Shown here: positions 1 to 34,156 of the stretch, in pieces | How the letters are laid out: each line of letters starts with the position of its first letter | Position numbering within the stretch: the first letter of the stretch is position 1 | IMG/VR virus record: IMGVR_UViG_3300029893_000041 | Location: 1 to 35,380 of that record | Reading direction: 5' to 3' (one strand) | Origin: a virus | Length of the DNA: 35,380 bases | Program-made: the position numbers and the translations under genes | The notes under the pieces: generated by a model | The model's input: only the letters and a program-made list of their open reading frames with translations | The model's database searches: none | Told to the model about the DNA's origin: nothing

Positions 1-44
1 GTCACGCGTGAGAATCCGCAGGTTCGAATTTGGGGGTTCTTGTC

Positions 45-536
45 ATGCCTCGCAAATCAGGCCCACCCAGAAAACCTACTAGCCTGCGCGTTCTCGAGGG
101 TAACCCATCGAAGCGCCCGCTTCCCAAGGGAGAGCCGAAGCCCGCGTCGGCCGTACCTGCACCACCTCTTTGGCTCGACGACCATGCCCGGGCTGAGTGG
201 GGTCGCATCGTCCCCGAGCTCAACGCACTGGGCCTGCTTTCCTGTCTCGACATGTCGTCCCTGGTTGGCTACGTGACCACGTGGTCTGAATTCGTCCAGG
301 CCGAGAGGGAAATCGCCGAGTATCGGGATGCCAACGGGGGGCGGATTACGTTTACAACACCGAATGGGGCCCTGCAACAGATTCCGGCGGTGGGCGTGAG
401 GAACAAAGCCGCTCGGCTACTCCTTGCGTTTGCCGCGGAGTTTGGCCTGTCACCGTCGGCCCGGGCGGCCATCGACATGAGCAAACTCGGGCAACCGAAG
501 GAAGACGAGATCGAGGGCCTGCTTTCCGGGTGTTGA
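45..536 (+). CDS. terS: Phage terminase small subunit (P27 family)
   Basis: This 163-residue protein would recognise phage DNA and hand it to the large terminase for packaging. Family recognition rests on the basic N-terminus (PRKSGPPRKPTSLRVLEGNP), followed by WLDDHARAEWGRIVPEL and a helical body ending in LLAFAAEFGLSPSAR, all typical of P27-type small terminases. The ATG at 45 was chosen over an upstream in-frame TTG at 30 because a GGGGG ribosome binding site lies at 32-36, correctly spaced for 45. It sits 7 bases before the large terminase gene, the usual pairing. The first 44 bases of the window hold no gene. Confidence 0.9.
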   Translation: MPRKSGPPRKPTSLRVLEGNPSKRPLPKGEPKPASAVPAPPLWLDDHARAEWGRIVPELNALGLLSCLDMSSLVGYVTTWSEFVQAEREIAEYRDANGGRITFTTPNGALQQIPAVGVRNKAARLLLAFAAEFGLSPSARAAIDMSKLGQPKEDEIEGLLSGC

Positions 537-543
537 TGCAACC

Positions 544-3060
544 ATGCCCTATGACGAGGCTAAGGCCGAGCAAGCCGTACGGTTCATCAGGCATTTGAGG
601 CACACACAGGGACGGCAGTTCGCAGGGCAGCCATTTAGCCTCCTCCCTTGGCAGGAGCACGAGGTAATCCGTCCGCTGTTCGGCACCGTCCGCGAGGACG
701 GGACGAGGCAGTACCGGACGTGCTATGTCGAGGTGCCCAAGAAGAACGGTAAGGCCCTAGCGCTTGATACACCAATTCCGACGCCCGCCGGTTGGACAAC
801 GATGGGCGAACTCCGGCCGGGTGACGAGGTGTTCGACGAGTTCGGACGGCCCTGTCGGGTAATTGCCGCGACGGAGCCCATGCTCGGTCGGTCGTGTTAT
901 GCGGTCACCTTCTGTGATGGCGTGACAATTATAGCCGATGCAGAGCATGGATGGCTTACACAGACCCAGATACCCTACAAAGTTGTGGCTATCAGAACAA
1001 CACACGAAATCGCCCAGCGGGTACGTGTGAATCCTGCAAACCCTGCTTCGGGATTCAATCACAAGATACCATTGGCGCCTGCCGTGCTTGACCTACCTGA
1101 GGCCGAACTACCAGTAGACCCTTACGTGCTGGGGGTCTGGCTTGGGGATGGGCGGCATGACTGTGCTCAGATAGCAGTGGGCGATGGTGATGTAGCTACA
1201 AATCCGTCGCTACAGGAGCAACTCCGGGACCTTGGCGTTCTGGGCAGAAAACATATTCCTCCCGCATATCTGAGGGCTTCGCCGAAGCAACGTTTCGTGT
1301 TGCTCCAGGGCCTCATGGATACCGATGGATACGTGTCTGCGGCGGGTCAATGTGAGTTCACTACAACGAGTCCGGCTCTGCGTGACGGTGTTGTAGAGCT
1401 TCTGCGATCACTAGGTTTTAAGCCATACATTGGAACAGCGCGGGCTAGTCTGAACGGAAAAGACTGCGGGGAGAAGTACCGAGTTAGCTTCTTCGCCTTC
1501 AGTGATACCCCCGTTTTCCGCCTGGAACGAAAAAGAAAAAGGCAGAAAGCCAGGCCGAAACGTCGACCGCGTTCATTGACCCGCGTGATCACCAAAGTCG
1601 AGCCAGTTCCATCCGTGCCCGTCCGGTGTATCCAGGTCGACAATCTGTCGGGGCTGTTCCTAGCAGGCCCAAACATGGTGGTCACCCACAACAGCGAGCT
1701 GGCGGCGGCCGTCGTACTCAAGCTCCTGTGTGCCGACGGCGAGACGGGAGCCGAGGTCTACGGGGCGGCCGCGGATAGGTCGCAGGCGAGCAAAGTGTTC
1801 GACGCCGCGGCTCAGATGGTGAGGCAGAGCCCGGCGCTGTCGGCCCGGTGCCGCATCGTGGAGTCGACGAAGCGCATTGTCTACCGGCCGACTGCGTCGG
1901 TCTTCAGGGCCCTCTCGGCCGACGTGAAGACCAAGCACGGCATGAACATTCACGGGGTCGTCGCCGACGAACTCCACGCCTGGGAGGGGCGACGGGGGAG
2001 GGCTCTCTGGTCGGTCCTGACCCAGGGCGCGACGGCCGCGAGGCTACAGCCGCTCACGTTCATCATCACGACGGCCGGCAACACCCGGAACTCGGTGTGC
2101 TGGGAGGTCCACGAGTACGCCCGGAAGGTCAAGATGTTCCGCGACGGCAAGCCGGGAGGTATCGATGATCCGACGTTTCTGCCCGTCCTCTATGGGCTCG
2201 ACGAGACGGACGACTGGCACGACGAGGCAAACTGGGCCAAAGCGAACCCTTCGCTCGGCCATACTCTTACTCTGGAGGCCCTCCGATCCGAGTATCGGCG
2301 CGTGCGAGAGATACCGAGCCTGCAGAACGACTTCCGCCAGCTTCGGCTGAACCAATGGGTCTCCCAGGTGACTCGCTTTCTTCCGATGGACCTCTGGAAC
2401 GCGACGGCTGGCAGGGTCATGCCCGCCAGGCTCGTGGGTCGCACGTGCTATGCTGGCCTGGACCTTGCCTCGACAACCGATGTGGCCGCACTGGTTCTGG
2501 TGTTTCCGATGGATGATGGGACCTACCAGGTCCTCCCGTACTTCTGGATACCCGGAGACAACATCAAAGCCAAGAGCGCGAAGGACAATGCGAGCTATGA
2601 GGTCTGGGTGGACCAGGGCTACATCGAGGCTACCGAGGGCGACTACATCGACTACGAGGCCATCAGACGGACCCTCGAGGAGCTGAGCGAACTCTATCGC
2701 ATCGCCGAGGTGGCCTACGACGACTGGGGGAGCCCCCAATTGGTCCAGCAGCTCCAGCACGCTGGGTTCACGGTCAAACCGGTGCGCCAAGGCTATAGGT
2801 CCCTGTCGCCCCCGACGAAGGAGCTAATGACCCTCGTCGTCTCCAGAAGGCTCGTCCACGGTGCGAATCCCGTCCTGGACTGGATGGCCGACAACCTTGT
2901 GGTCGAGCGCGACGCGGCTGGCAACGTCAAGCCGAGCAAGGAGAAGGCGAGCCAGAAAATTGACGGCATGGTTGCTCTCATCATGGCACTTGACATGGCG
3001 CTCCGGAACGAGGGGACCGGCCGGGCGCACTACGAGGACCACGACATTCTGGTGGGGTGA
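544..3060 (+). CDS. terL: Phage terminase large subunit, interrupted by an in-frame intein
   Basis: ATPase-nuclease motor that packages DNA into the prohead and cuts concatemers. The reading frame is 838 codons; removing the intein (residues 71-383) leaves 525 residues, a normal length for an HK97-type large terminase. The rejoined Walker A reads VPKKNGK/SELAAA, Walker B is VVADELHAW (D475, E476), and the RNase H-like nuclease begins at YAGLDLAST (D640) and includes KIDGMVALIMAL (D807). The intein sits exactly between Lys70 and Ser384 of the P-loop, so unspliced protein should be unable to bind ATP. The flanking host frame is more GC-rich than the intein. Downstream genes follow directly. Confidence 0.95.
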   Translation: MPYDEAKAEQAVRFIRHLRHTQGRQFAGQPFSLLPWQEHEVIRPLFGTVREDGTRQYRTCYVEVPKKNGKALALDTPIPTPAGWTTMGELRPGDEVFDEFGRPCRVIAATEPMLGRSCYAVTFCDGVTIIADAEHGWLTQTQIPYKVVAIRTTHEIAQRVRVNPANPASGFNHKIPLAPAVLDLPEAELPVDPYVLGVWLGDGRHDCAQIAVGDGDVATNPSLQEQLRDLGVLGRKHIPPAYLRASPKQRFVLLQGLMDTDGYVSAAGQCEFTTTSPALRDGVVELLRSLGFKPYIGTARASLNGKDCGEKYRVSFFAFSDTPVFRLERKRKRQKARPKRRPRSLTRVITKVEPVPSVPVRCIQVDNLSGLFLAGPNMVVTHNSELAAAVVLKLLCADGETGAEVYGAAADRSQASKVFDAAAQMVRQSPALSARCRIVESTKRIVYRPTASVFRALSADVKTKHGMNIHGVVADELHAWEGRRGRALWSVLTQGATAARLQPLTFIITTAGNTRNSVCWEVHEYARKVKMFRDGKPGGIDDPTFLPVLYGLDETDDWHDEANWAKANPSLGHTLTLEALRSEYRRVREIPSLQNDFRQLRLNQWVSQVTRFLPMDLWNATAGRVMPARLVGRTCYAGLDLASTTDVAALVLVFPMDDGTYQVLPYFWIPGDNIKAKSAKDNASYEVWVDQGYIEATEGDYIDYEAIRRTLEELSELYRIAEVAYDDWGSPQLVQQLQHAGFTVKPVRQGYRSLSPPTKELMTLVVSRRLVHGANPVLDWMADNLVVERDAAGNVKPSKEKASQKIDGMVALIMALDMALRNEGTGRAHYEDHDILVG
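754..1692 (+). mobile_element. Class 3 (WCT-type) intein with LAGLIDADG homing endonuclease domain, inserted in terL
   Basis: In-frame segment of 313 codons that starts at Ala71 and ends VVTHN, followed by Ser384 as the +1 extein residue. Ala at position 1 means there is no N-terminal Cys/Ser nucleophile. The three residues that define class 3 inteins are all visible: Trp137 in block B (AEHGW, with His135), Cys362 in block F (VRCIQVDN) and Thr381 in block G (VVTHN). Two LAGLIDADG motifs, LGVWLGDG (196-203) and LLQGLMDTDG (253-262), indicate an apparently intact homing endonuclease. A Lys/Arg-rich stretch follows (about 325-345). The segment is visibly richer in A and T than its flanks, consistent with horizontal arrival. 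Confidence 0.92.
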
Positions 3061-20869: not shown

Positions 20870-22068
20870 GCAGCAACCTCAAAATCATCCTCCACAAGGC
20901 CTATCCCTCCGGCTACCGCGTCTGGTCCGGCATCACGGTGGGCCCGAACGCCCCCTCCACGCGTTACGCCACCGAGGCCGAGGTTCGCGCCGGGCTCGCC
21001 GAGCTTCCTGCGGCCCTCGTATCGGTCCTCGCCGCCAGGGGCCACGAGATCCACGTCTTCCGCAATCCCCTGGTCGGGGGGAGCCCGCACGTCTACGATA
21101 TCGGCTCGGGGCGTGTGTGTCTCGGCGAAGGCCCCCTGGCCGACTGGTCAGGCTACCAGTGGCAAGAATTCTGGGCCGGCATCACAGTCCACGAGATAGG
21201 TCACGTCGTCGAGTTTGGCTGGCTGAAGGACGATCTCGCGACCCGGTACTGGGCACTACGCCTGCCCCATCCGGCGGTTCCCCACGCGGACTGGTTCGCC
21301 GAGGACTTGCGCCAGGTCTTCGGCGGCGCGCTGGCAACGGCGGCCCGCCACAAGTGTGCCCTGGCGGATTGGGACGCAGAGGTCCGGGCCAAGGCCCGGG
21401 CGGTCGTCATGGACGTGGTCGGGAAGGTCGTCCTGGAGGGAGAGGGTGGTATGACTGGTACGGTCAAGGGCTTGAAACTGCTCAGGCCGGTGGATGAGAA
21501 GCATCCGGTGACGGCGAGGTTCGGCCAGACAGGGCCGCACTGGACGCCCTACCACCGGGGGACCGACTTTGGCTGTCCGTCAGGTACGGCGGTCAAGGCC
21601 GTCATGTCTGGCGTGGTGGACAGGGTCAGCGAGGAGACCGGGTATGGGAAGTACGTCAAGCTCCATCATCCCCAGGTCCGTTGGGTGGACGAGACTGGAA
21701 GGGAGCACAGTGGGCTTTTCTCGCTCTACGCCCACCTGAATGCTGCCGCCAAGGACCTTCGCGTTGGCGTCCGGGTCGTGCAGGGCGAAACCGTCGCCTA
21801 CTCCGGAGCCACGGGGACGAAGGACCCTCATCTCCACTTTGAACTTCGCGGCCCCCACGGGACCATCAAGGAGGCTTTCAACGCCGAGCCCTACTTCGTC
21901 AAGCCTACTTACCCTGACGTACTGCCCGAGCGGTGGAGTTTCGAGGCCGTCGAGCAGTGCGCCCAGAAGGGCTATCTCGTGGGCTATCCGGATGGAACGT
22001 TCAACCCGACGCGCCCGGTCACGCGGGAGGAACTCGCCGTGTTCGCGCTCCGCCTGAAGGGGGAGTAG
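20866..22068 (+). CDS. Endolysin: zincin-like HExxH domain + M23 peptidase + SLH cell-wall anchor
   Basis: 400-residue lysis enzyme. Residues 1-190 contain VHEIGHVVEF (His109, Glu110, His113), a zincin-type zinc site, with Glu146 in WFAEDLRQ a possible third ligand. Residues 205-345 are an M23 peptidase with HRGTDFG (His230, Asp234), YAHL (His290) and PHLHFEL (His322, His324), all zinc or catalytic positions present. Residues about 355-397 are one SLH domain (FEAVEQCAQKGYLVGYPDGTFNPTRPVTREELAVFALRL), which binds secondary wall polymers under an S-layer. ATG 20866 overlaps the XhlA stop. A well-placed internal start (21451) could make an M23-SLH form. Confidence 0.88.
   Translation: MSSNLKIILHKAYPSGYRVWSGITVGPNAPSTRYATEAEVRAGLAELPAALVSVLAARGHEIHVFRNPLVGGSPHVYDIGSGRVCLGEGPLADWSGYQWQEFWAGITVHEIGHVVEFGWLKDDLATRYWALRLPHPAVPHADWFAEDLRQVFGGALATAARHKCALADWDAEVRAKARAVVMDVVGKVVLEGEGGMTGTVKGLKLLRPVDEKHPVTARFGQTGPHWTPYHRGTDFGCPSGTAVKAVMSGVVDRVSEETGYGKYVKLHHPQVRWVDETGREHSGLFSLYAHLNAAAKDLRVGVRVVQGETVAYSGATGTKDPHLHFELRGPHGTIKEAFNAEPYFVKPTYPDVLPERWSFEAVEQCAQKGYLVGYPDGTFNPTRPVTREELAVFALRLKGE
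21435..21453 (+). promoter_or_regulatory. Internal ribosome binding site and in-frame ATG inside the endolysin gene
   Basis: GGAGGGAG (21435-21442) lies 8 bases before an in-frame ATG at 21451 (codon 196), exactly at the boundary between the zincin-like domain and the M23 domain. Initiation here would give a separate 205-residue M23-SLH protein. Internal starts of this kind are known for some phage endolysins. Confidence 0.5.
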
Positions 22069-22073
22069 ACCCG

Positions 22074-23186
22074 GTGGGCAAGCCAAGCCAGATCACCCAG
22101 GAGCATCTTGATGCCGTCCCCGGCCTGAGAGAGCGAGGCCTCAACTGGGCGGAGGCGGCCGCCATCCTCGGCGTGACGAGCGAGGCCCTGAAAACGGCTT
22201 GGTTCAGAAAACGCAAATGGCTCGGGAGAAAGAAGACGGCCTTGACCCCGCAGGCCGCACCCAGGGACGCTTCCGTGCTCCTCCGATGCCTCCGTCCGAA
22301 GCCGACGCCTGTCACGACCCTCGCCTGGAACCTGAAGGCAAGCGTGGAGGAAGTTCAGGGATGGCTTACCGAGCTTCGGGAACGAGGCTATCGCGTCCGC
22401 TCAGCCGGGGATAAGTGTTGGCTTGACCGAGATGTCGTGCCCGAGGATGTCGAGGTGAGCCATCGCCGAGCCGGCGTGAGAAGGCGGATCGGCATTGTGT
22501 CCGACACGCACCTCGGCTCCCGTCATCAACAGCTCACTCACCTCAATGACTTCTACGACAGATGTGCCCTCACCAAGGTGACCGACGTTTATCACGCCGG
22601 CGACCTCCTCGCCGGCGTCGGGGTCTATCCGGGCCAGCACTCCGACCTTTTCGTTCATACCGAGGACGATCAGGTGGACTACGCCGTCGCCAACTACCCG
22701 AGGCGCGAGGGCGTGCGGACGCACGTCATCGGCGGCAACCATGACCTCGCGTTCGTCAAGCAGGGCGGAGCCGACCCGGTTCGCCTCATCGCCAAGGAGC
22801 GCGATGACATCGAGTACCTGGGGGCGTACGCGGCCTGGGTCGATCTCGCGCCGGGTTGCCTCATGTATCTTCTCCATACCGACGGGGCCGCTCCCTACGC
22901 CCAGTCCTACCGGCTTCAGAAGCTCATTGAGTCTTTCCAGGGCGGCCGTAAGCCGAACATCGCCGTGGTCGGGCACCTTCATTCCTGGACGATGCTTTTT
23001 CTCCGCAACGTCTACGGTATGCTCGCCGGGTGCTTCGAGGCCCAGTCGGACTACCTTCGTCGCAAGGCCCTCCAGCCCCAGATCGGGGGCACCATCCTTG
23101 ATATCGAGTTCACTGACGGCGGTGCCATCCAGCGCTTCCGACCGGAGTTTGTGGCCTACCTCGTCGCCAAGGACCGCGACTGGTAG
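22074..23186 (+). CDS. Calcineurin-like metallophosphoesterase with two N-terminal DNA-binding-type domains
   Basis: 370-residue protein. All phosphoesterase motifs are visible: DTH (144-146), GD (176-177), GNHD (221-224), His268 (LLHTD) and GHLH (300-303), so two metal ions should bind. Ahead of this, residues 15-50 (ERGLNWAEAAAILGVTSEALKTAWFRKRKW) look like a helix-turn-helix. Residues 65-117 (SVLLRCLRPKPTPVTTLAWNLKASVEEVQGWLTELRERGYRV) look like a winged helix. It probably acts on nucleic acid, not on cell wall, although it sits between endolysin and holin. GTG 22074 follows GGGGGAG; the open frame upstream overlaps the endolysin. Confidence 0.85.
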   Translation: MGKPSQITQEHLDAVPGLRERGLNWAEAAAILGVTSEALKTAWFRKRKWLGRKKTALTPQAAPRDASVLLRCLRPKPTPVTTLAWNLKASVEEVQGWLTELRERGYRVRSAGDKCWLDRDVVPEDVEVSHRRAGVRRRIGIVSDTHLGSRHQQLTHLNDFYDRCALTKVTDVYHAGDLLAGVGVYPGQHSDLFVHTEDDQVDYAVANYPRREGVRTHVIGGNHDLAFVKQGGADPVRLIAKERDDIEYLGAYAAWVDLAPGCLMYLLHTDGAAPYAQSYRLQKLIESFQGGRKPNIAVVGHLHSWTMLFLRNVYGMLAGCFEAQSDYLRRKALQPQIGGTILDIEFTDGGAIQRFRPEFVAYLVAKDRDW

Positions 23187-27327: not shown

Positions 27328-28752
27328 TCACGGCCACTCCTGCCCCTCTCCGCCCTCCAGCCACTCCCGACTCACCCCGAGAACCGTAGCTATCCGGCCG
27401 AGCCGCTGCTCGTGGACCTCGACCCGCCCAAGCTCGATCATTGACACGCTCGACTTCGCAAGTCCGAGGAGCCGGGCGAGGTCCGCTCCCGTGAGACCCC
27501 TGGCTTCCCTCGCGCGCCGTATCCTGTCGCCAACGGACCCACCGGCCGGCGGCAGTGCCCTTGGGGCCTCGGCGCGGGCGCGCGAGAGAGCCATATCCAC
27601 AGCAAGGGCGGCCTCCAAGTCCATCCCGGGAAGTAGGTGGCCGTAGGTGTCCATCGTGGTCTTGATCGTCTCGTGGCCGAGACGGTCCTGGATAACTTTG
27701 AGGTGGACGTTACGCCGGATGAGCTGCGTGGCGTGCGTGTGCCTGAGGTCGTGGAAGCGTAAGCCCCGGAAGCCCGCCTTGGCGACCAGGCGAGCCCAGC
27801 GTTTCCGGAAATTCCACGGCTTCTCAAGAGCCCCGTCGGCGGCGGGGAAGACGAGGTCGTCGCCCACGAGCTCGCGGCCCAGTCGGAGAGCAAGGTGCTC
27901 CAGGTAGCGTTCCATGACCTTCACGGGCTCCCCCATGAAGATGACGCGCCGCCGGCCCGCCCTTGTCTTCGGTTTCCCTGTGCTGACCTCGGATGCCCCC
28001 ACCCGGCTTACCGTACGGTTTACGGTGACGGCCCCGCAACGGACCTCGCGCCCGTCCGCGTCATGCACGACGATACCGAGTTCGAGGTCGGACCTGCGGA
28101 GCGCCAGGCACTCCCCGAGCCGTAACCCTGTGTGCCCGGCAAGGCTGGAGAGCGCATGGTCCCGCGGCCCGGCGGTTTCAAGCACGCCGAGAAGATGGAC
28201 GAGCTCGGCCTCGTCGAGGGCGCGGAACTTTGGTTCGCCAGGCTCGTATGGGCTCACGGCCTTCGCCACGTTCTTGGGGATCATGCCCCAAGTGACAGCC
28301 AGCTGGAGAGAGGCGTGGATGACGCAATGGATGAGCTCCAAGGTCCGGGGCGACAGGCCACCGACTTGGCGAGCCCGGCCCCCCTCGGCCAGCTGGGCGT
28401 AGAATTCGCTCAGCAGCCGCGGGTGGAGCCTATCGAGCCGGATGTGGCCGAGATGCGGCTTGACGTACCGTTTTACGAGGTAGCGGTAACCGTAGACGGT
28501 GCTTGGCCTCAATCGTAGTCCGACGTATCCGAGCCACGTATCGAGGTGCTCCCCGAAGGTGGTCCGGGTCGGCTCCACGTGTTCACCCCGGTTGTACCTG
28601 GCGACGAGATCGGTGCAGTACCTGTCGGCCGCGCGCCGGGTTCCCCGGAACGTTTCGGAGCGCCGGATGCGCTTACCCCGTTCATCGAGGCCGAAGCACA
28701 AGGTTACCTTGTGTCGTAAAGGTCCAAGGGTGGTGACGTGCCCTGTGACCAT
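27328..28752 (-). CDS. int: Tyrosine-type integrase with C-terminal XRE helix-turn-helix domain
   Basis: Site-specific recombinase that inserts the phage at tRNA-Pro. From ATG 28752 (with AAAGGGGG upstream) it has 474 residues; a 29-residue upstream extension in the open frame is unlikely. Domains: AP2-like arm-binding start (HKVTLCFGLDERGKRIRRSETFRG), core-binding SAM-like domain (about 65-160), and catalytic domain with Arg211 (HTGLRLGE), Lys260, His334 and Arg337 (FHDLRH), His360 (LGH) and Tyr370 (MDTYGH). All catalytic residues are present. Residues about 406-465 (VGDRIRRAREARGLTGADLARLLG...IELGRVEVHEQRL) form a complete Cro/C1-type HTH, unusual for this family. The gene reads toward attP, 58 bases away. 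Confidence 0.94.
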   Translation of the reverse strand: MVTGHVTTLGPLRHKVTLCFGLDERGKRIRRSETFRGTRRAADRYCTDLVARYNRGEHVEPTRTTFGEHLDTWLGYVGLRLRPSTVYGYRYLVKRYVKPHLGHIRLDRLHPRLLSEFYAQLAEGGRARQVGGLSPRTLELIHCVIHASLQLAVTWGMIPKNVAKAVSPYEPGEPKFRALDEAELVHLLGVLETAGPRDHALSSLAGHTGLRLGECLALRRSDLELGIVVHDADGREVRCGAVTVNRTVSRVGASEVSTGKPKTRAGRRRVIFMGEPVKVMERYLEHLALRLGRELVGDDLVFPAADGALEKPWNFRKRWARLVAKAGFRGLRFHDLRHTHATQLIRRNVHLKVIQDRLGHETIKTTMDTYGHLLPGMDLEAALAVDMALSRARAEAPRALPPAGGSVGDRIRRAREARGLTGADLARLLGLAKSSVSMIELGRVEVHEQRLGRIATVLGVSREWLEGGEGQEWP

Positions 28753-28861
28753 TAGATGCCCCCTTTGCGCCCTGGTCCGCCTGAATGTTTGGCACCGGAG
28801 GCCGGAGTCCTGCCAACGCAAACGAGGCTGCGCTCGCATAGACCCGGCTTGCCACGGGCAC

Positions 28862-31970: not shown

Positions 31971-32184
31971 CTGGTCCTCGCTCCCCGTCCTGCTGACCGT
32001 CGCCGAGGCCGCCCTGGTTCTCCGGGTGAACGCGCACACCGTCTACGAGCTGGTGCGCCAGCACATCGAGAGCCCTCATCCTCTCCCTGAACCCAGCTTC
32101 GCCCTCGAGGGGAGGGTCGGTCATGCGCGCGATGCCTCAGCAAACGCAGTTCCGGGACTTCGTCGAGCCGGCGGCTGCCGGTAG
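31963..32184 (+). CDS. Helix-turn-helix protein (excisionase-like), apparently short
   Basis: 73-residue protein. VLLTVAEAALVLRVNAHTVYELVRQH is a typical HTH of the excisionase/MerR type. The usual continuation (a glycine-rich wing and arginine strand) is missing; instead the frame runs into PSFALEGRVGHARDASANAV, within a 62-base overlap with the ATPase gene. It may be a truncated wing or a genuine short form. ATG 31963 has AAAAGG upstream; GTG 31942 is an alternative with GGGAG closer than usual. Confidence 0.55.
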   Translation: MTDWSSLPVLLTVAEAALVLRVNAHTVYELVRQHIESPHPLPEPSFALEGRVGHARDASANAVPGLRRAGGCR

Positions 32185-34156
32185 AGGCGTCGGGGCACCG
32201 GCAGAGCTCCGGCTGTTGAGACTGTGGCTCAGGAACTTCAAGGGCGTCCGGGAGTTCGAGCTGAACGCAGGCGGCCGGAACATCGACGTCTACGGCGACA
32301 ACGCCACGGGGAAGACGACGCTCTTCGACGCCTTCACATGGCTCCTATTCGACAAGGATTCCGCGAACCGCAAGGAGTTCGAGATCAAGACCCTCGGACC
32401 CGACGGCGAGGCCGCGCATGGCCTCGAGCACGAGGTGGCGGGAACGTTCAGCTTGTCCGGCAGGACGATCACTCTCCGCAAGGTCTACTCCGAGCAGTGG
32501 ACCAAGCAGCGGGGATCAGCCAATAAGGTCTTTACCGGGCACGTCACGGCGTACTACATCGACGGAGTGCCCGTAAAGAAGCAGGACTACGAGGCACGCA
32601 TCGCCTCCATGGTCGACGAGAAGGTCTTCAGGCTCCTCTCCGACCCCGGCTACTTCAACGAACAGCTGCATTGGCAGGAACGGCGAGCGTTGCTCCTGGA
32701 GGTCTGCGGGGACATCCCTGACTCGGCGGTGATCGGCTCGGATCCGGCGCTCGCGCCGCTCACGCAGATCCTCGGAGGTCGATCGCTCGACGACCACCGC
32801 AAGGTCTTGCAGGCCGCGAGGGCCAAGCTGAACAAGGACCTCGAGCAGATACCCGTCCGCATCTCCGAGGTCCAGCGGGGGCTGCCCGACATCGAGGGGT
32901 TCGACCCTGACCAGGCGGCCAAGACCCTGGAGGCGGCCAGAGAGGCCCGAAAGCGGAAGCTCGAGGAGCTCGCCCTCATCGAGAACGGAGGCGAGGCCGC
33001 ACAGAAGCGGAGGCGCCTGGCCGAGGTCGAGGCGCTGTTGCTGGACCTCGAAAACCAGGCCCGCAGGAGGTCCGAGGTCGCGCTGGCGGCCAAGCGGCAG
33101 GCCCTGCGCGATGCCGAGGTTGCAGTCTCAACCGCGGAGCGCGGCCTCGCCGACGTGCGCTTGGCAGTCGAACGTCTCGAAGAGGACGCAGCCCGCATCG
33201 CTGGCGACCTGGACGTCCTGCGGCGACAGTACCGCGAGGTCTCGGCTGAGCAGTTCAGCTATGTCGAGGAGACGGTCTGCCCCACATGTGGTCAGCCGCT
33301 GCCCCAGGAGATGCTGGAAGCAGCTCGGGCCAGGGCTTTGGAGCGGTTCAACGCCTCCCGGGCGGAGCGGCTGGGACGACTGGACGCCGAGGGCAGGGCG
33401 CTCCGGGCCCGCAAGGACCAGGCGGACGCCGAGCTCGCGCAACTCCGAGACCGGATTGCCGCGGCCGAGGCAGGCCTGCCGCACCTGCGCCGGAGGGTTG
33501 GCGACCTCCTGGCCGAGGTCGGGGCCATGACCGAGGCTCCGCTGGACCTCGACCAGGACCCTGATTACCAGAAGCTCCTCGCTGAGCGTGACGCTCTGGT
33601 CGAGACGCTCGAGGCCGCCGACGAAAGCCGGCCCGACACGAGCACCCTCCGGGCCGCGGTCGAGTCGCTTGAGCGGGACGTCGCAGCGGCCGAGCGTGTG
33701 CTCTCCGAGGTCGAGCAGTACCGCCGCGGCCTCGCCCGCATCAAAGAGCTCAAGGCCGAGGAGAAGCGCCTGGCCGCCGAGTACGAGCGCCTGGAGCGCG
33801 AGGTCTTCCTCATCGAGGCCTTCGTCCGCGCCAAGGTCCGCCTCCTCACCGACCGCATAAATTCCCGCTTCAAGCTCGCCCGGTTCAAGCTCTTCAACGT
33901 CCTCGTCAACGGCTCGGTCGAGGAGTGCTGCGAGACCCTCTACGAAGGGGTCCCCTACGGCACTGCCCTCAACCGGGGAGCCCGGCTCAATGTGGGCCTC
34001 GACATCATCAACACCCTCACCGAGCACTACGGCTTCATCGCCCCCGTCTGGGTCGACAATGCCGAGGCCGTAACCCGGCTCATACCCGTCAGGGGACAGC
34101 TCATCCGGCTCATCGTGAGCGAGCCGGACAAGAGACTCAGAACGGAGGTGCATTGA
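32123..34156 (+). CDS. Rad50/SbcC-like AAA ATPase of the phage recombination module
   Basis: 677-residue ATPase. Walker A is GDNATGKTT (58-66); a long coiled coil (about 200-570) is broken by CPTCGQ (Cys386, Cys389), a zinc-hook motif; the C-terminal lobe has LNRGARLNVGLDIINTL as signature region and VWVDNAEA (Asp645, Glu648) as Walker B. This is the architecture of SMC/Rad50-type proteins. In Gram-positive phages such ATPases accompany RecT and an MBL-fold protein, exactly the order here. ATG 32123 has GAGGGGAGGG close upstream. It probably acts in recombination or end processing of replicating phage DNA. Confidence 0.88.
   Translation: MRAMPQQTQFRDFVEPAAAGRGVGAPAELRLLRLWLRNFKGVREFELNAGGRNIDVYGDNATGKTTLFDAFTWLLFDKDSANRKEFEIKTLGPDGEAAHGLEHEVAGTFSLSGRTITLRKVYSEQWTKQRGSANKVFTGHVTAYYIDGVPVKKQDYEARIASMVDEKVFRLLSDPGYFNEQLHWQERRALLLEVCGDIPDSAVIGSDPALAPLTQILGGRSLDDHRKVLQAARAKLNKDLEQIPVRISEVQRGLPDIEGFDPDQAAKTLEAAREARKRKLEELALIENGGEAAQKRRRLAEVEALLLDLENQARRRSEVALAAKRQALRDAEVAVSTAERGLADVRLAVERLEEDAARIAGDLDVLRRQYREVSAEQFSYVEETVCPTCGQPLPQEMLEAARARALERFNASRAERLGRLDAEGRALRARKDQADAELAQLRDRIAAAEAGLPHLRRRVGDLLAEVGAMTEAPLDLDQDPDYQKLLAERDALVETLEAADESRPDTSTLRAAVESLERDVAAAERVLSEVEQYRRGLARIKELKAEEKRLAAEYERLEREVFLIEAFVRAKVRLLTDRINSRFKLARFKLFNVLVNGSVEECCETLYEGVPYGTALNRGARLNVGLDIINTLTEHYGFIAPVWVDNAEAVTRLIPVRGQLIRLIVSEPDKRLRTEVH

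Follow-up and report, generated by a model that had tools for sequence, protein, structure and literature searches.

How does the large terminase subunit (TerL) of a phage come to carry 313 residues in the middle of its P-loop, and is the inserted element still a working, mobile one? The gene lies in the window, the whole stretch of DNA analyzed here, which spans the 35,380 bases of an IMG/VR virus record. Its genes run in the order terminase small subunit (TerS), TerL, portal, protease, major head protein, connectors, tape measure, tail genes, endolysin-like protein, integrase and RecT, and as judged from the sequence the genome is that of an uncultured temperate tailed phage, siphovirus-like by gene order. 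Elsewhere in the window, the tyrosine integrase (503 aa, 27328-28839, minus strand) has a C-terminal helix-turn-helix domain of repressor type (Pfam Phage_integrase at 207-402, HTH_3 at 440-494), and this ORF appears to be an integrase-repressor fusion. An SbcC-like AAA protein adjoins RecT, and a calcineurin-like phosphoesterase is encoded by a separate ORF (32123-34156 and 21933-23186, respectively).

The insertion site in the terminase gene

The terminase region of the window is laid out as follows.

30..536, plus strand: terminase small subunit gene, upstream of TerL (PHROG 83, E 6e-40)
544..3060, plus strand: TerL ORF, 838 codons in a single reading frame
544..753, plus strand: TerL N-extein, 70 aa, ending ...VEVPKKNGK at the Walker A lysine (joined-extein Pfam TerL_ATPase match; K-S junction in 50 relatives)
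754..1692, plus strand: class 3 intein, 313 aa, A1 to N313 (phmmer against 6bs8/6rix over both splicing halves; WCT residues in a 156-sequence alignment; AlphaFold model)
1693..3060, plus strand: TerL C-extein from Ser+1 onward, with the remaining ATPase domain and the nuclease domain (Pfam TerL_ATPase, TerL_nuclease)

The insert (TerL codons 71-383) is in frame, reads ALALDTPIPTP...MVVTHN and lies between ...PKKNGK and SELAAA..., thereby interrupting the Walker A motif of TerL between Lys70 and Ser. A search with the C-extein gathered 53 related TerLs (35-56% identity), and the K-S junction is uninterrupted in 50 of them; of the other three, two are fragments that stop short of the site and one (L113) has an intein at the same site. 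The intein boundaries are fixed because the K-S junction is empty in these related TerLs, and together with the frame of the ORF this makes the coordinates exact to the base. An earlier note on this DNA, which had placed an insert at 754-1692 in the terminase P-loop and had the Walker A motif divided between its Lys and its Ser, is borne out on both points, and the comparison with intein-free terL alleles that it proposed yielded related TerLs without the segment and no relative retaining it as part of the mature protein. Removal of the insert also restores the terminase domains: the Pfam TerL_ATPase score rises from 73.8 to 90.7 bits and its profile coverage widens from positions 41-177 to 6-177 when the exteins are joined, TerL_nuclease matches the joined exteins at 154.4 bits, and the ATPase and nuclease domains are then continuous.

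Splicing residues and class assignment

The two parts of the splicing domain flank the rest of the insert.

754..978, plus strand: N-terminal splicing half, blocks A and B, with Cys48, Asp62, His65 and Trp67 (Trp codon 952-954); the numbering of Asp62, His65 and Trp67 is identical in DnaBi1 (PMC6195587; alignment)
1585..1692, plus strand: C-terminal splicing half, blocks F and G, with Cys292 (1627-1629), Thr311 (1684-1686), His312 and Asn313 (alignment to 6bs8 105-139; Cys292, Thr311 and Asn313 in 156/156)

The class assignment made earlier was based on Ala in place of Cys or Ser at the start of the intein and on Trp, Cys and Thr at blocks B, F and G. Position 1 is indeed Ala, with no Cys or Ser nucleophile there, at a boundary set by the 50 intein-free relatives. 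When aligned by phmmer, Ala1, Asp62, His65, Trp67, Cys292 and Thr311 are in register with the solved class 3 Mycobacterium DnaB inteins, and the match to M. smegmatis DnaBi1 (6bs8; E 2.8e-32) takes in both splicing halves. The Trp/Cys/Thr (WCT) residues of DnaBi1 are Trp67, Cys118 and Thr137, and its block B holds Asp62 and His65 (PMC6195587). Among 156 aligned sequences, comprising the intein and its relatives, the Trp is found in 155 and the Cys and Thr in all 156, as is the residue aligned with Asn313. The residues do therefore occupy the block B, F and G positions, and the TerL numbers given for them, Trp137, Cys362 and Thr381, are correct and equal intein Trp67, Cys292 and Thr311. Block B His65, the C-terminal H312-N313 and Ser+1 are all present as well. 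The AlphaFold model of the intein (pLDDT 94.7) has a HINT splicing fold, and its splicing domain superposes on 6bs8 and 6rix at 1.3-1.7 Å (Z 22.5-22.8), with Z 22.5 and an rmsd of 1.3 Å over 127 residues for 6bs8. Sequence and model together identify the TerL insert as a class 3 (WCT) intein. Pfam Intein_splicing (PF14890) had no match in the window record, with matches in 6 of 14 control genomes, and no NCBIfam intein model scored above cut-off on the window intein. These misses reflect low sensitivity for a divergent, interrupted domain and are not evidence against an intein; with both sets of models below cut-off, the splicing domain would escape routine annotation.

Could the segment instead be a fixed insertion domain retained in mature TerL, or an intein of class 1 or 2? 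A continuous reading frame is compatible with such readings. Against them, relatives lack the segment exactly at K-S, every class 3 marker residue is in register with its counterpart in the solved class 3 inteins, Cys1 or Ser1 is wanting, and the C-terminal HN followed by Ser is complete. For these reasons we regard such explanations as extremely improbable.

For a class 3 intein, the expected pathway (PMC6195587, PMC7664689) would begin with an attack of Cys292 of block F, aided by His65, Trp67 and Thr311, on the Lys(-1)-Ala1 bond. The N-extein acyl group, carried at block F in a branched intermediate, would then pass to Ser+1, Asn313 would cyclize and the exteins would join, yielding a TerL whose Walker A motif (...NGKSELAAA...) is intact. 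In the M. chimaera intein, Cys124-His65-Thr143 form a protease-like triad (PMC7664689). From these residues and the predicted fold we infer that TerL is spliced in the window phage. Because the +1 position is occupied by the P-loop Ser, the unspliced precursor should be without a working P-loop or ATPase, and packaging should depend on splicing; the same loss-of-function reasoning has been discussed for other P-loop inteins (PMC6195587).

Splicing might also be subject to control. The window intein has Cys48 (codon 895-897), as do 128 of the 156 aligned class 3 inteins. In DnaBi1, Cys48 was termed non-conserved; there it pairs with the block F cysteine in a disulfide that blocks splicing, and every Cys48 change tried abolished splicing (PMC6195587). 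By analogy, TerL maturation in the window phage could be redox-gated via Cys48, but we consider this unlikely. The effect of those changes means that conservation of Cys48 may reflect splicing itself, not regulation. If such gating were true, host oxidative stress would hold back TerL splicing and delay DNA packaging, and given how many of the aligned inteins have Cys48, many phage packaging motors could have a switch of this kind.

The endonuclease domain and the homing cycle

Between the splicing halves lies a LAGLIDADG endonuclease domain with three segments of interest.

1129..1152, plus strand: endonuclease block C (first LAGLIDADG), LGVWLGDG with Asp132 (alignment; D in 149/156)
1153..1248, plus strand: shortened segment of the first endonuclease half, with the deletion junction near 1177-1206 (32 residues against at least 49 in all but two relatives; alpha2, beta3 and beta4 in the L001 model, not here)
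1306..1329, plus strand: endonuclease block E (second LAGLIDADG), QGLMDTDG with Asp189 and Asp191 (invariant in relatives; Pfam LAGLIDADG_3 and Hom_end above cut-off)

Both endonuclease motifs had been described as intact, and in the narrow sense they are: motifs C and E are present with the acidic residues D132, D189 and D191, and Pfam LAGLIDADG_3 scores 30.0 bits against a cut-off of 22.5, from the second endonuclease half. The first half, however, is internally deleted. Aligned with MAFFT, the window intein has 32 residues from Gly133 at the end of motif C to Lys166 (KHIP), whereas 153 of 155 relatives have at least 49 (a count of anchor distances that leaves out L273, an empty extraction) and the nearest ones 59-70. 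Only L188 (27 residues) and L215, which is Clavibacter phage CN1A (25 residues), are shorter. In a FastTree tree, these two and the window intein belong to three different clades, and the three shortenings of the first LAGLIDADG half look independent. Because its nearest tree relatives carry the longer form, the shortening in the window intein is derived, and the alignment indicates an in-frame loss of about 27-38 residues of the first half, seen in one metagenomic contig. A frameshift was considered as the cause of the missing segment and rejected, the DNA between the anchors being physically short and in frame.

What the deletion removed can be read from a comparison of AlphaFold models. The control model, of L001, has a helix at 142-149 and strands at 154-159 and 164-169, all at high confidence. 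In the window model, a short strand (139-141) is followed by a poorly predicted stretch (mean confidence 63) and then directly by the last helix (151-160). The window intein thus lacks the alpha2 helix and two strands of the predicted DNA-binding sheet of the first half, so that, of the two complete alpha-beta halves that make up a DNA-binding saddle, the first is incomplete relative to L001. Such strands form part of the DNA-binding sheet in the LAGLIDADG fold. With part of that sheet lost on one side, specific binding and cleavage should be impaired, and the window endonuclease is probably unable to cleave or home efficiently; the view of it as active gives way to one in which impairment is more likely. 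The reduced protein could still nick or bind DNA, since it retains the two LAGLIDADG helices and their acidic residues.

An alternative hypothesis is that the endonuclease is fully active and recently arrived, the shortened first half being a compact working variant. The intact motifs and acidic residues and a foreign GC3 would agree with this, and the occurrence of a short segment in the unrelated L188 and CN1A, in separate clades, means that a short form may be tolerated. Nevertheless, a helix and two strands of one half's DNA-binding sheet are gone, nearly all relatives keep the longer segment, and three independent short forms are as decay predicts, which leaves this hypothesis improbable. 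We consider it quite likely that the element is a class 3 intein that can still splice but whose homing endonuclease is damaged, which would place it in the degeneration phase of the homing cycle. Splicing would be kept since TerL needs it, and the endonuclease would decay, as the homing cycle predicts (PMC8966425). A remnant might also be retained as an aid to intein folding or splicing, a mutualism in place of unfinished decay. The second endonuclease half is well ordered in the model, and mutualism between HINT and endonuclease domains is on record for other inteins (PMC8966425). There are, however, class 3 mini-inteins, M. smegmatis DnaBi1 among them, that splice with no endonuclease at all (PMC6195587), and we find such a role doubtful. 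An endonuclease that has lost part of a DNA-binding half yet keeps diagnostic motifs that look intact is a warning against calling activity from motifs alone. Moreover, three independent losses of the same element, with natural pairs of full-length and shortened forms, make degeneration in the homing cycle testable.

The base composition of the intein is unlike that of its surroundings, as had been noted: GC is 56.3% against 66.2% for the window, so low that 99.8% of stretches of equal length (939 bases) exceed it, and GC3 drops from 0.83 in the exteins to 0.56 in the intein, with its minimum in the endonuclease part (0.51). The intein-flank difference of -0.073 lies towards the low end when compared with a mean of -0.024 in 80 relatives. 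The intein was probably derived from a lower-GC genome, and its low GC3 could be a sign of recent arrival. The claim that the element is recent finds support in this composition and in nothing else. No close allele, intein-bearing or empty, was found; a megablast search of window positions 1-25000 against named phages gave no match, and so no near-identical intein-free allele by which to date the insertion. Recent arrival also fits awkwardly with a decayed endonuclease unless decay was fast or the intein was already damaged on arrival.

Distribution and relation to known class 3 inteins

The splicing mechanism had been called rare, which does not agree with at least 588 relatives in one scan of viral contigs; among the matches listed, most have Trp/Cys/Thr and many are at a GK-S/T site. 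A second, profile-guided scan of viral contigs returned at least 584 relatives. Isolated phages have relatives as well, tblastn placing them in 765 phage records. Where the site was inspected, the insertion falls at a K-S/T junction in 74 of 84 relatives, 60 of these 74 being in GK-S/T, and GK likewise precedes the TerL inteins of Gordonia phage YungMoney and Clavibacter phage CN1A. Class 3 inteins at the TerL P-loop site are thus common in viral metagenomes, and the window adds a well-bounded one. Extein and intein identities in 29 TerLs are weakly correlated (Spearman 0.21, over pairs that are not independent), which suggests movement between lineages. Class 3 inteins also occur in several Chloroflexi genomes (L217, L219, L220, L223), between RLEGK and SSLGRLGL. 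Five others (L024, L025, L043, L044, L051) have a penultimate Cys or Gly, not His, and lie behind a PQK motif, immediately ahead of SGK/TGK, not at the usual GK-S site.

A class 3 intein in the TerL P-loop is an already known kind of element, to which the window adds a further member. P-loop insertions in mycobacteriophage TerL were reported by Kelley et al., who demonstrated splicing for several TerL inteins and DNA cleavage for two (PMC5050341). Relatives in IMG/VR contigs such as L001 and L002 are about 60% identical to the window intein and share its TerL GK-S site and WCT residues but, unlike it, have a full first endonuclease half (59-68 residues). Among isolates, the TerL intein of Mycobacterium phage Eureka (Kostyavirus) likewise has class 3 residues, a LAGLIDADG domain and the same Walker A site (ARKNGK followed by TELLAG); it differs in its 43% intein identity and in the 54 residues that separate its motif anchors. 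Gaia TerL1-e and Bethlehem TerL1-c, also class 3 inteins of phage TerL, were both spliced and that of Bethlehem also cleaved DNA, but 1-e is at Walker B and 1-c in a poorly conserved helix (PMC5050341); the Gaia intein is about 40-48% identical to that of the window. The M. smegmatis DnaBi1 and M. chimaera DnaB1 inteins (6bs8, 6rix) have splicing domains 52% identical to that of the window intein over the structural alignment. Like DnaBi1, the window intein has Ala1, Cys48, Asp62, His65 and Trp67 at identical numbers, and like both it has the block F Cys, the block G Thr and a P-loop insertion with Ser+1; unlike these mini-inteins of DnaB helicase, it resides in TerL and carries a LAGLIDADG domain. 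Partial deletion of that domain is shared with the P. horikoshii VMA intein, whose endonuclease is degenerate (PMC8966425). There the catalytic residues of the motifs are lost, whereas the window intein keeps its motifs and lacks some of the DNA-binding sheet in its first half.
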